64,000 nt of DNA from Mollicutes bacterium (GTDB lineage Bacteria > Bacillota_I > Bacilli_A > Izemoplasmatales > Izemoplasmataceae): NCBI GenBank assembly GCA_003558105.1, contig PWMS01000034.1, positions 1 through 64,000 of the forward strand, written 5' to 3'. The notes under the pieces are model-generated. The model had not been told where the DNA came from. It searched no databases and was given only the letters and a program-made list of their open reading frames with translations. Shown piece after piece: positions 2,719 through 34,962 of the stretch (within the stretch, counting starts at the first letter, position 1; each line of letters starts with the position of its first letter). The position numbers were made by a program, and so were the translations under genes.

Positions 2719-2932
2719 ACGATAGCCTAATGCAAAAAATGCACGTTAGACAACGCTACAACTCATACCCAGGAGTGTAATCTTCTTTTGAGTTCAGGTA
2801 GGTCTACCGGCTTAACATCGTCCTACTATGCACCTTCCCGCTTTGGCAGTGGTATTTTGCATTTCGTCCGTATTACGGTTGCTGGGACAGCTTGGGATTT
2901 TCACCCAATTCCCTGTTATAATGCACCTGTAC
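2719..2932 (-). promoter_or_regulatory. Cobalamin riboswitch
   Basis: Minus strand contains GGGAAttgGGTGAAAATCCcaagCTGTCCCaGCAACCGTAAtacgGACgaaatgcaaaataCCACTGccaaagcGGGAAGGtgc...gtaggacgatgttAAGCCGGtAGACCtACCTG, the canonical B12 box series. Confidence 0.95.
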
Positions 2933-3034
2933 TCTTGTAAGTATAGTGTACTGCTTTCCATCCAGATAAGTCAAGGAATTTCATAACTTTTTCAGCTTAT
3001 TCATGATATAATCAACCATGAAAGGATGATATAC

Positions 3035-4239: not shown

Positions 4240-4958
4240 CGCCTTTCAAAGAAACGCGTAAATTGTGAAAGGGGTACTGTAATCATAATATAGAGCATCC
4301 ACATGATAATATAACCCTCAACATGCGCAAAGGTTCTCGATGTCATGACACTCATCGAATGAAACAATTCCGAATAACTAATGACATGTAATAAAGCACT
4401 ACCTTTGATGATTAAGGAAAAATTATTCATCAACGGCGGCATCAATATTCTGATGACTTGTGGAATGATGATGTAACGGTATCTTTGATAAGGTGTAAAC
4501 CCAAACAAATCCATCGCCTGGTATTGATCATCAGAAATGCTTGAGAAGGCCGATTTATAAATATTGGTCATATAAGGCGTGATATAAATCGTGATACCCA
4601 AAATCCCTAAGACAATACGATTATAACTGTTAAAAGCGGGGCCGATAACAAAAGCCATGACCACAATCATAACGAGTAAAGGTGTCCCATAAATAATTTC
4701 CGTTAAAACATCCACAAAGGCTCTAAAAAAACGCACTTTGGATTTCGATAACAAATAGAGTACAAAACCGGATATGACACTACCGATTAAGATGATAAAT
4801 GAAACCATGACGGTGCGCAAAAAACCACCCATAATCAGTGTGCGATAACCTTCGAATGCTGAGAGGTTAAAAGGTTGCCTTTGCCTTAAAGCGATAAAGA
4901 CTGCAAATCCGATAAAAAGTAGGATAGATATAAGGTAGGAAAGCCGTTTATTCATCAA
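4224..4958 (-). CDS. Amino-acid ABC transporter, permease
   Basis: His/Glu/Gln permease family TM pattern; operon context. Confidence 0.88.
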   Translation of the reverse strand: MMNKRLSYLISILLFIGFAVFIALRQRQPFNLSAFEGYRTLIMGGFLRTVMVSFIILIGSVISGFVLYLLSKSKVRFFRAFVDVLTEIIYGTPLLVMIVVMAFVIGPAFNSYNRIVLGILGITIYITPYMTNIYKSAFSSISDDQYQAMDLFGFTPYQRYRYIIIPQVIRILMPPLMNNFSLIIKGSALLHVISYSELFHSMSVMTSRTFAHVEGYIIMWMLYIMITVPLSQFTRFFERRWGLQ

Positions 4959-5754
4959 TAAAGAACTCCAGACCGTAGCGTTCTAAAAGCGCCTCAATAT
5001 CCTCATCCCATCTTCCTCTTAAAGTGTCATATGCGCCACCCTCATCATGCATGGTAGCGATGAATTCATTCGCTTGTGCTAACAAGTCATCGTTGCCTTT
5101 TTCAACGGCCATACCTATGGGGGAAGATTGAATAGGGTCCCATATGACAAGGGTACTATCTGGATGCGCTCTATGGCCATTGGTGACTGGAAATGAACTC
5201 ATTAAAAGAATGTCTGAAGTCCCTTGAGAGACACTTTGAATGGCTGTACTAAGTTCTGTGAATTCGGTAACATTTTTGCCTAGATCCGTAGGAATTTGAG
5301 TAGAGACTTGTGCGACAATACCAGCAAATTCGGCTTCATCAATCGCCAATAAATCATCAATACTACTATCTTCATCAATGCCGTGAGCATCCGCAAAATC
5401 CTGATTTACCAAACTAATAATTTTAAAATAAAAATAAGGATCACTAAAATTCACTGATTGTTTACGGTCTTCGGTGATACTCATTGAACCAATAATAATA
5501 TCGATTTCACCAGAATTTAATGAGGGTATCATGGAACCAAAATCGGTATTGACAATTTCTACTTCACGACCGAGATATTCACCCAACATATAGGCAACAT
5601 CAACACTGATACCTGTGGGTTCACCATCCTCGATGGTTTCAAAAGGTGGATAGGATAGGTCCATACCTACACGGAGAATATCTTCATCCCGACCACAGGC
5701 TGAGAGTAAACTTATAAATAATAAAAATAACGTTGACATTAATATTTTTTTCAT
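4948..5754 (-). CDS. Amino-acid ABC transporter, substrate-binding lipoprotein
   Basis: Lipobox LLSAC; RVGMDLSYPPFETIEDGEPTGISVDVAYMLGEYLG SBP family 3. Confidence 0.93.
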   Translation of the reverse strand: MKKILMSTLFLLFISLLSACGRDEDILRVGMDLSYPPFETIEDGEPTGISVDVAYMLGEYLGREVEIVNTDFGSMIPSLNSGEIDIIIGSMSITEDRKQSVNFSDPYFYFKIISLVNQDFADAHGIDEDSSIDDLLAIDEAEFAGIVAQVSTQIPTDLGKNVTEFTELSTAIQSVSQGTSDILLMSSFPVTNGHRAHPDSTLVIWDPIQSSPIGMAVEKGNDDLLAQANEFIATMHDEGGAYDTLRGRWDEDIEALLERYGLEFFIDE

Positions 5755-31386: not shown

Positions 31387-31710
31387 TTAAGCCACCTTTT
31401 CTAACTGTTTAATGAGTTTTATTATGCGCTCATCGTCTGTTTTGTGAAGTATTTTTTGAATCAGTTCATCCCGTTTTTCTTGTTTGCTTTTAAGTTGTAA
31501 TTTTTCTTCAAAGTGTTCTAATTTTTGGACGGCGTTTTGGATATGGTCATGAACGGCGTTGCGTGAGATATTCTCAAGCTGCGCAATCTCTTTTAAAGTA
31601 TAGTTTTCACTGTAGTAATAATGTAAAATTTTCAGTTGCTTTGAGGTTAGTAAAGATTCATAAAAGTAGAGTAAATCGTTGATCATTAATTGCTTTTCTA
31701 AAGCATCCAT
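31387..31710 (-). CDS. ylxM: YlxM/p13-like HTH protein
   Basis: INDLLYFYESLLTSKQLKILHYYYSENYTLKEIAQLENISRNAVHDHI; between ftsY and ffh. Confidence 0.93.
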   Translation of the reverse strand: MDALEKQLMINDLLYFYESLLTSKQLKILHYYYSENYTLKEIAQLENISRNAVHDHIQNAVQKLEHFEEKLQLKSKQEKRDELIQKILHKTDDERIIKLIKQLEKVA

Positions 31711-32675
31711 TATATCACTTCCGAAAAGAGACCATAAATATATTCTTCAATGTCAAAATATTCCAAGTCTTCTAATTTTTCACCAAGACCGATCATTTTT
31801 ATCGGAACACCGATGGCCTCCTTAATAGCTAAAGCAATACCACCTTTAGCGGTACCATCAAGTTTCGTTAGTATGACACCGCTTAAATGGGTGACTTCAT
31901 TGAATATTTTAGCTTGCGACAAGCCGTTTTGGCCGGTGGTCGCATCTAAGATAAGGAGCGTTTCATGAGGCGCATGAGAAATTTCGCGACCGATGACATG
32001 GTGAATTTTTTGAAGTTCGTTCATGAGGTTCTTTTTGTTTTGTAAGCGTCCTGCGGTATCGCACAATAAAACATCAATCTCGTTTTTTTTAGCCTCATTA
32101 ATCGCATCAAACATGACGCTGGATGGATCGGATCCCTCAGGTTTAGAGAAAAAAGCGCAGCCTACACGTTCAGACCATATTTTTAGTTGGTTAATGGCAC
32201 CGGCACGAAAAGTATCGCCCGCAACCATCATCACGTTTTTACCTTCGTTTTTCAGCTGATAAGCAACTTTGCCAATGGTGGTGGTTTTGCCTACGCCGTT
32301 TACCCCAACAAAGAGTAAAACTGATATCTCATGATCGGTATCTAAGTTCGTATCCACAATTTCTTCTTGCACATAGCGTTTAAACATTTCTTCCACGATG
32401 ATTTCTTTTAAATCTTCAGCGTTTTCAATACCCTTAAGTTCAACGGTATTTCTTAGATGCTCAACAAGTTTAATAACTGTATCAACACCCATATCGGCCA
32501 TGATAAAAAGTTCTTCGATATCGTCGAACAACCCTTCGTCAATTTTCTTTCCAGAAGCCAATAGTTCGTTGAGTTGATTGAACGTTGATTCCCTTGTTTT
32601 AGCCATCCCAATCTTGTATTTTTGGGCTTTAGCTTTACGATTTTTACTTTGAAATAAATTTTTAAAAAAAGCCAT
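31710..32675 (-). CDS. ftsY: Signal recognition particle receptor FtsY
   Basis: LLFVGVNGVGKTTTIGKVAYQL, VAGDTFRAGAINQL, TKLDGTAKGGIAL. Confidence 0.97.
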   Translation of the reverse strand: MAFFKNLFQSKNRKAKAQKYKIGMAKTRESTFNQLNELLASGKKIDEGLFDDIEELFIMADMGVDTVIKLVEHLRNTVELKGIENAEDLKEIIVEEMFKRYVQEEIVDTNLDTDHEISVLLFVGVNGVGKTTTIGKVAYQLKNEGKNVMMVAGDTFRAGAINQLKIWSERVGCAFFSKPEGSDPSSVMFDAINEAKKNEIDVLLCDTAGRLQNKKNLMNELQKIHHVIGREISHAPHETLLILDATTGQNGLSQAKIFNEVTHLSGVILTKLDGTAKGGIALAIKEAIGVPIKMIGLGEKLEDLEYFDIEEYIYGLFSEVI

Positions 32676-32732
32676 AGGCACACTTCCTTACAATTATCAT
32701 AGGTATTATAACACATGCTTTGTGACGATAAA

Positions 32733-32756
32733 ATAAAAAACCCCTATAAAAAGGGG
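32733..32756 (-). terminator. Terminator of candidate small RNA
   Basis: CCCCTTTTTATAGGGG followed by TTTTTTATTTTA. Confidence 0.75.
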
Positions 32757-32849
32757 AAATCCGCCTCGCGGCGGATTAAGGAAGGGGATGTGTGAATAAT
32801 AAATTATTCACCATGCTATGTAAGGGATAAGCAGCAACTTTTCAGTTGC
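32733..32849 (-). ncRNA. Candidate small RNA with own promoter and terminator
   Basis: Minus strand: TTGACA-N17-TAATAT, then GCAACtgaaaaGTTGC stem, C-rich linker, GTGAATAATttATTATTCAC stem, second C-rich linker, AATCCGCCgcgaGGCGGATT stem, CCCCtttttataGGGGTTTTTT terminator; no ORF. Confidence 0.65.
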
Positions 32850-32855
32850 ATTTAA

Positions 32856-32884
32856 ATATTAACATGAAATAGGGGGGGTGTCAA
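32856..32884 (-). promoter_or_regulatory. Promoter of candidate small RNA
   Basis: TTGACA (32879-32884), 17-bp spacer, TAATAT (32856-32861). Confidence 0.75.
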
Positions 32885-32907: not shown

Positions 32908-34962
32908 TTAATCTTTTGCACATTGCGGATCGTTACATACAACGCTTCCGTCGCTTAGTTCAACCATTAAGTCATCACAGTCTTTACATTTGTCTCCGGT
33001 TGGGGTACCTCTTAAGATATTTTTGCATTTAGGGAAATTATCGCATGCATAGAAGGTGTTTCCTTTGTTTTTTCCACGCTTCGCAACCCTTTCTACAATT
33101 TTACCTTTTTTACATTTTGGACAGGTTATATCGGTTTTTTCTGTTTCTTTTTGACCTTCTTCAGGTTTGATGTATTTACACTTTGGATAAGCGCTACACG
33201 CTTCGAATGTACCGTATCTTGATTGACGGTAAACCATCTCTGAACCGCATTTTGGACAAGTTTCGCCGGTTGTTTTTGGGGCGATTTTTTCCATCTCTTG
33301 ATTGGCTTTATCCACCAAAGGCATAAACGCGTGATAAAACTCTTTGACAACCGCGGTTTGATCGGCTTCGTCTTGTGCAATATCATCTAATATGCTTTCC
33401 ATTTTAGCGGTGTAATCGACACTGATGATGCGTTTAAAATACGCTTCGAGTTTCTCGATGGTTAAACGGCCTTGTTCGGTGGGGTTGAACTTCTTTTCGC
33501 TTAAAGAGACATAACGACGCTTTTTCAATGTATCAACCGTTTGGGAGTATGTTGAAGGTCGGCCAATACCCAAATCTTCCATTTCTTTGATTAAGGTTGC
33601 TTCGGTATACCTAGCAGGCGGTTGGGTGAAGTGTTGTGATTTTTCAATGCTTTTAGCCTTGATTTTTTCGCCTTCTTTAAATGATGGTAAAACACTCGTG
33701 TTTGTGCTTTCATAAGGTCCATAAACTTTTAAGTACCCATCGAAATTAAGCGCTTGGGCTTTGGCGGAAAAAATGGTTTTGTGGTTTTCAAGTCGCAAGG
33801 TCGTATTCACTAATTGGGCTGGGGCCATAAGGGTAGCTACAGCCCTGGCGTAAATGATTTTATAGAGTTTATATTCATCATTACTTAAGTATGTCTTGAT
33901 TTGATCGGGATGATATTTGACGTTGGTGGGACGGATGGCTTCATGCGCATCTTGGGTGTTTTTTTTGCTTTGGTGTTTGCGTGTACGGCCAACATAGTCT
34001 TGTCCGTACTGGTTTTCAATAAAACTTTGAGTCGGTTTAATAAACGATTGTGATAAGCGGGTCGAATCGGTACGCATATAGGTGATGAGACCAGCCGTTT
34101 CATCTTTCAACTCCACACCTTCGTAAAGTTTTTGGGCAATCATCATGGTCTTTTGTGCGGTAAAATTCAAACGGTTAGATGCTTCTTGTTGTAAGCTTGA
34201 TGTTGTAAATGGTGCTTTCGCTTGTTTTTTACGTTGTCTTTTTTTGATGCTTTTAACGGTAAAGGTTGTCGATAATATATCGAGCACTTTTTGTGCTTCG
34301 GTCTCGTTTGAAAGTTCTGGTTTTTTATTGTTGAGGCGCTTTAATTCAGCTTCAAACCCTTCAAATTGAGCTTTGATTTTCCAATATTCTTCTTTGACGA
34401 AAGCTTCGACTTCTCGTTCGCGATCAACAATGATTTTAAGAGCAGCGCTTTGAACGCGACCCGCCGACTTGCTTTTGATTTTATTTTGCAGTAGCTTGGA
34501 GAGTTTGAACCCAATGATACGATCTAATATGCGTCTAGTCTCTTGCGAAGAAACCAAATTTAAATCAATATCACGACAATCATCAAAAGCATTCAATACC
34601 GCGCTTTTTGTAACCTCGTTAAAAATCACCCTATGAAAAGGGGTGTTTTTTGCCTTGGGGGCTAACACTTCTTTTAAGTGCCAACTGATGGCTTCCCCTT
34701 CGCGGTCGGGGTCGGTAGCGAGGTAGATTTCTTTGGCTTTTTTAGCGTGTTTTTGTAATTCTTGGATGATCTTTTGTTTGTCTTGTAAAGTAGAATAACT
34801 CGGTTTAAAATCGTTTTCTATATCTAAGCCAAGACCACCGACGTTGCTGATGGACAGATCTCTAATATGGCCTTTTGAAGATAGAACTTCAAAGTCCTCA
34901 CCGAGATATTGTTTGATGGTTTTTGATTTAGACGGGGATTCGACGATTACCAATTTTTCCAT
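32908..34962 (-). CDS. topA: DNA topoisomerase I
   Basis: LVIVESPSKSKTIKQYLG; GLITYMRTDSTRLS; C-terminal zinc fingers CPKCGSEM. Confidence 0.98.
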   Translation of the reverse strand: MEKLVIVESPSKSKTIKQYLGEDFEVLSSKGHIRDLSISNVGGLGLDIENDFKPSYSTLQDKQKIIQELQKHAKKAKEIYLATDPDREGEAISWHLKEVLAPKAKNTPFHRVIFNEVTKSAVLNAFDDCRDIDLNLVSSQETRRILDRIIGFKLSKLLQNKIKSKSAGRVQSAALKIIVDREREVEAFVKEEYWKIKAQFEGFEAELKRLNNKKPELSNETEAQKVLDILSTTFTVKSIKKRQRKKQAKAPFTTSSLQQEASNRLNFTAQKTMMIAQKLYEGVELKDETAGLITYMRTDSTRLSQSFIKPTQSFIENQYGQDYVGRTRKHQSKKNTQDAHEAIRPTNVKYHPDQIKTYLSNDEYKLYKIIYARAVATLMAPAQLVNTTLRLENHKTIFSAKAQALNFDGYLKVYGPYESTNTSVLPSFKEGEKIKAKSIEKSQHFTQPPARYTEATLIKEMEDLGIGRPSTYSQTVDTLKKRRYVSLSEKKFNPTEQGRLTIEKLEAYFKRIISVDYTAKMESILDDIAQDEADQTAVVKEFYHAFMPLVDKANQEMEKIAPKTTGETCPKCGSEMVYRQSRYGTFEACSAYPKCKYIKPEEGQKETEKTDITCPKCKKGKIVERVAKRGKNKGNTFYACDNFPKCKNILRGTPTGDKCKDCDDLMVELSDGSVVCNDPQCAKD

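Follow-up and report, generated by a model that had tools for sequence, protein, structure and literature searches.

A putative small RNA family with two nearly invariant C-rich linkers, encoded beside topA in Izemoplasmatales and related wall-less bacteria

The window analyzed here is a stretch of 64,000 nucleotides (contig PWMS01000034.1, positions 1 to 64,000) from a 1.56-Mb MAG of a Mollicutes bacterium. Between topA and ftsY, and on the same strand as both genes, it contains an element of about 115 nt with the following features.

32908..34962, minus strand: topA, the upstream neighbor within the family and for most of the distant members
32879..32884, minus strand: -35 hexamer TTGACA, invariant in 30/30 aligned relatives
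32856..32861, minus strand: -10 hexamer TAATAT, near consensus and preceded by TG (extended -10), TGnTATnAT-like in relatives
32735..32850, minus strand: predicted sRNA gene, matching covariance models R1 (141 bits) and R2 (129 bits); fold z = -5.5
32834..32849, minus strand: 5' hairpin GCAAC-UGAAAA-GUUGC, 100% paired, with double changes at 3/5 pairs among 30 family copies
32812..32833, minus strand: linker 1 (UGCUUAUCCCUUACAUAGCAUG), C-rich and single-stranded, nearly invariant, core unpaired probability 0.87
32792..32811, minus strand: hairpin 2, GUGAAUAAU..AUUAUUCAC, double changes at 5/7 modelled pairs across the family
32778..32791, minus strand: linker 2 (ACAUCCCCUUCCUU), C-rich, the presumed seed, nearly invariant across families, unpaired probability 0.80
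32758..32777, minus strand: hairpin 3, AAUCCGCC-GCGA-GGCGGAUU, double changes at 8/8 pairs across the family
32735..32756, minus strand: intrinsic terminator CCCC..GGGG with T-run, conserved in relatives
32705..32710, minus strand: TATAAT of a separate ftsY promoter, retained in most relatives
31710..32681, minus strand: ftsY, the downstream neighbor

A preliminary description of this DNA had read here a minus-strand TTGACA-N17-TAATAT promoter, about 115 nt without an ORF, three stems, an intrinsic terminator and C-rich linkers. All of these are present: the spacer between the two promoter hexamers measures 17 nt, no ORF of at least 60 aa lies inside the element, and promoter, terminator and linkers are conserved in relatives, with the stems either kept or compensated. 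Taken alone, the promoter pattern (8 promoter-like sites vs 7.3 expected in a 3 kb scan of this AT-rich region) and the terminator pattern (4 sites vs 3.2 expected in 3 kb) are at chance level. Conservation (TTGACA in 30/30 relatives, linkers kept, stems kept or compensated) settles what such a pattern scan cannot, and we therefore consider the element real. Its predicted fold has an energy of -38.9 kcal/mol (z = -5.5), and 0/200 shuffles were as stable. An own promoter and an intrinsic terminator, the traits of an autonomous sRNA, are present by sequence conservation, and the element is almost certainly a stand-alone sRNA gene.

Lying between topA and ftsY on the same strand, the element could also be pictured as an ftsY leader or a topA 3' UTR instead of an independent gene. 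This is highly improbable given its own invariant promoter, its terminator and the separate ftsY -10 (32710-32705) after that terminator. In addition, the sRNA persists where ftsY is not adjacent, and its paralogues at unrelated loci have promoter-like sequences of their own. The earlier proposal of an independent gene thus holds.

The secondary structure is reflected in the changes between members. In the 45-member alignment, which was fitted to the covariance model and hence favours the structure, 21/23 pairs are changed on both sides (198 double-change cells), including 5/5 pairs of the 5' hairpin, and 97.5% of the cells are paired vs 34-45% with the partner slid. Stem swaps between paralogues are visible by eye. 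In hairpin 3, AAUCCGCC/GGCGGAUU is replaced by GAACCGCC/GGCGGUUC, GGACCGGC/GCCGGUUC or AAGAUUGCU/AGCAAUCUU, while another swap turns GUGAAUAA/UUAUUCAC into GUGUGUA/UACACAC, the form that hairpin 2 takes in mobile copies. The stems thus turn over while the linkers stay nearly unchanged, with the nearly constant consensus sequences ACUUAUCCCYUACAUA (linker 1) and ACAUCCCCUUCCUWA (linker 2). Among the 30 aligned copies, the transcript is nearly fixed except for the 5' hairpin and the loops. On sequence comparison, two C-rich, predicted single-stranded stretches are kept over very long evolution.

A DNA search gave a strong match in 36/37 genomes of the window's family, and covariance model R1 matches 47/49 family genomes. 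The topA-ftsY position is conserved, with topA upstream and ftsY downstream in 29/30 checked loci of the window's family (Izemoplasmatales); the thirtieth has no topA match but otherwise the same surroundings. Together with a second covariance model built from 45 diverse members (R2), R1 also reaches other families of the class, many Acholeplasmataceae among them. One such Acholeplasmataceae genome is presumably that of A. laidlawii PG-8A. Most of the named records with the RNA belong to Izemoplasma/Izimaplasma and Acholeplasma-type MAGs. No sRNA was found by the R1 and R2 searches in the families of Mycoplasma-like genomes of about 0.8 Mb, phage records gave no match to the sRNA, and an exact 22-mer sRNA pattern had no match in viral contigs.

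To the weaker matches, synteny brings a separate line of evidence. We examined 27 loci (26 weaker members and the window's own), and topA lies directly upstream on the same strand in 22 of them, the neighbor genes of distant loci carrying the Pfam domain Topoisom_bac. Because synteny played no part in finding these loci, the adjacency to topA is independent evidence of homology. The predicted sRNA gene descends vertically beside topA. One family of Acholeplasma-type MAGs (f18; loci L084-L093) has the sRNA moved away from topA, often near SGNH-lipase, ECF-sigma or pseudouridine-synthase genes. Locus L093 of this family holds two copies close together (4794-4913 and 5356-5432), the second of which is interrupted by an N run.

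Besides the copy at topA, we found at least two kinds of paralogue. The first follows large lipoprotein or Ig-like surface genes at a distance of 55-110 bases and has its own promoter-like sequence. Lipoprotein-gene paralogues were seen at loci L061, L062, L064, L066, L071, L075 and L078, with an Ig-like domain detected in one. The second kind lies downstream of serine-recombinase genes in a mobile element. These genes are in tandem in the best-preserved mobile copies and fragmentary in some others. Mobile copies were seen at loci L063, L068, L069, L072, L073, L074, L083 and L167. Several of them have tRNA-Leu, tRNA-Cys or tmRNA genes nearby, with the sRNA in several cases just before the tRNA or tmRNA gene, and one is located on a 93-kb plasmid. 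Some of the mobile-kind loci also hold metal ATPase or cation-efflux genes. Repeated AAGTTCAA-type sequences were observed after the sRNA copy in the serine-recombinase loci. Two families of the order share near-identical mobile-kind copies, a distribution that suggests transfer. We can only speculate, and with some doubt, that serine-recombinase elements beside tRNA or tmRNA genes carry a working sRNA, with re-invented stems and the same seeds, to enter the host's post-transcriptional network, and that the family would be a global regulator of ancient origin in the Acholeplasma/Izemoplasma line.

No Rfam 15 family reached its gathering threshold on the sRNA or its relatives, and an E-value threshold likewise yielded no family, in agreement with the initial suggestion of a possibly undescribed RNA. 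The only matches at gathering level were tRNAs in related loci and, at another place in the window, a cobalamin riboswitch (2780-2945, minus strand; RF00174, 88.7 bits), which sits upstream of a 371-aa minus-strand ORF (1555-2670).

One close likeness in design is to RsaE/RoxS, an autonomous Firmicutes sRNA of about 100 nt with duplicated C-rich single-stranded motifs and a small hairpin before CAUCCCCUU. The duplicated motifs have counterparts here in AUCCCYU (linker 1) and AUCCCCUU (linker 2), both predicted to be unpaired. RsaE/RoxS represses via the SD, as may be proposed by analogy for the present sRNA. Membership in RsaE/RoxS also entails a ResD/SrrAB-dependent promoter. RoxS itself has a 10-nt CCCCUUUGUU duplication (PMC4409812). 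A diverged RsaE/RoxS would account for the repeated CCCCUU seeds, the small GUGAA..UUC hairpin, the terminator and a weak full-length alignment of 17-18 bits. Nevertheless, we regard such an origin as very unlikely. The RsaE/RoxS model (RF01820) gave 17.4 bits in the window and 18.6 bits for an Acholeplasma copy, far under the gathering score of 79, and 0/149 class genomes passed the cut-off, with a positive B. subtilis control. The sequence relation is confined to GUGAA..UUC and CAUCCCCUU, leaving the 5' hairpin and linker 1 unmatched. Unlike RsaE/RoxS, the present sRNA lies between topA and ftsY, carries that extra 5' hairpin and has multiple paralogues.

LhrC RNAs offer a second comparison: they are multicopy, about 111 nt long, and bind a G-rich site before the lapB start through three redundant CU-rich UCCC sites (PMC4132741). 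Copy number, length and C-rich UCCC sites are alike, but the UCCC motifs of LhrC are in two hairpin loops and one single-stranded stretch, whereas those of the present sRNA are in two inter-hairpin linkers, and some of its paralogues are on mobile elements, unlike LhrC. The LhrC model (RF00616) aligned to the Acholeplasma copy over its full length with 28.7 bits (E=0.01 in a 201-base search) vs a gathering score of 110. The UCCC motif also serves target binding in staphylococcal RNAIII and SprD and in B. subtilis FsrA and is considered a general feature of low-GC bacteria (PMC4132741). The present sRNA shares this C-rich motif with all three; in the Rfam scans none of them matched it above threshold in structure or sequence. 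A search of the open-licence PMC literature brought up no account of the present RNA. With no Rfam family, failed membership in RsaE and LhrC and no description in that literature, we conclude that the RNA represents a new sRNA family that would work like RsaE and LhrC.

Targets were sought in the genome called HR1 here, which we take to be Izemoplasma HR1; it was rebuilt from sequence stretches, and a simple gene caller gave 1591 genes. Over the HR1 start regions, the duplex energies of the linkers were no better than those of shuffled linkers, and genome-wide counts of linker-complementary k-mers were not enriched and fell below the shuffle mean. Pairing of the linkers with the rRNA operon did not exceed shuffles either, and no linker-complementary regulon is conserved across genera. 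Two sites, both picked after the fact, match a linker well. Linker 2 finds its longest perfect complement in the HR1 genome over 14 nt, a length that 4/200 shuffles reach. This stretch falls exactly on the Shine-Dalgarno of a 91-aa gene (HR1 1417220-1417495, minus strand; locus L264 near 15387) with a duplex of -27.6 kcal/mol. This gene is absent from the gene caller's set, is followed by a tRNA 3'-end-like sequence, and is an orphan with no homologue in the other searched genomes of the order. The other site, UGUAAGGGA, is a complement of linker 1. In four species of a single genus it is kept some 25-30 nt ahead of the start of a heavy-metal P-type ATPase, and it is not general outside that genus. 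A Fur-family gene, the second best in HR1 by linker 1 energy, was rejected as non-specific across 30 orthologues, and so was ftsY, as its upstream regions hold no conserved linker-specific complementarity. Strong duplexes also turned up here and there when the start regions around paralogues were scanned; this exploratory, uncontrolled scan was set aside.

We read the RNA, with a probability of roughly 0.65, as a C-rich, SD-pairing trans-acting regulator belonging to a new sRNA family. Pairing with the SD is plausible by analogy to RsaE/RoxS and LhrC and from the single 14-nt SD match in HR1; RsaE/RoxS (PMC4409812) and LhrC (PMC4132741) are both documented to pair through C-rich motifs at SD sites. 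Transcription of the sigma-70 type would yield a stand-alone RNA of about 115 nt, in which three stable hairpins followed by the intrinsic terminator would expose two single-stranded C-rich seeds. These seeds, UUAUCCCYUACAUA and ACAUCCCCUUCCUWA, may pair with purine-rich Shine-Dalgarno regions of mRNAs, and pairing at the SD would block translation initiation. The sRNA would thus probably silence mRNAs by pairing with their ribosome-binding sites. Counting against SD pairing, the roughly 15 nt conserved per linker are more than a short seed requires. Of the trans-acting SD regulator suggested at the outset, the autonomous sRNA and its C-rich linkers stand, while action on the SD found neither genome-wide enrichment nor a regulon across genera.

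The same observations could be explained if both C-rich linkers bound a protein or a conserved RNA (as a sponge or scaffold for a pyrimidine-binding factor) and not many mRNAs. Linkers that are nearly invariant over families while the stems change freely, and complementary mRNA sites that are not enriched, would be expected from such a partner. The best HR1 complement of linker 2, however, sits on an SD, and the rRNA operon pairs no better than shuffles do, and we consider a partner of this kind unlikely.

Trans-acting sRNAs of low-GC Gram-positives are usually narrow in range. RsaE has been described as the only trans-acting sRNA besides 6S that is conserved between S. aureus and B. subtilis (PMC4409812). 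The putative new family, which the searched copy of Rfam lacks, spans several wall-less bacterial families. Since the complete genome taken as PG-8A carries the sRNA and a transcription start map exists, expression and function should be directly testable in a culturable organism. That map covers A. laidlawii PG-8A (PMC5138195). The family combines a near-fixed place beside topA with spread on mobile elements.
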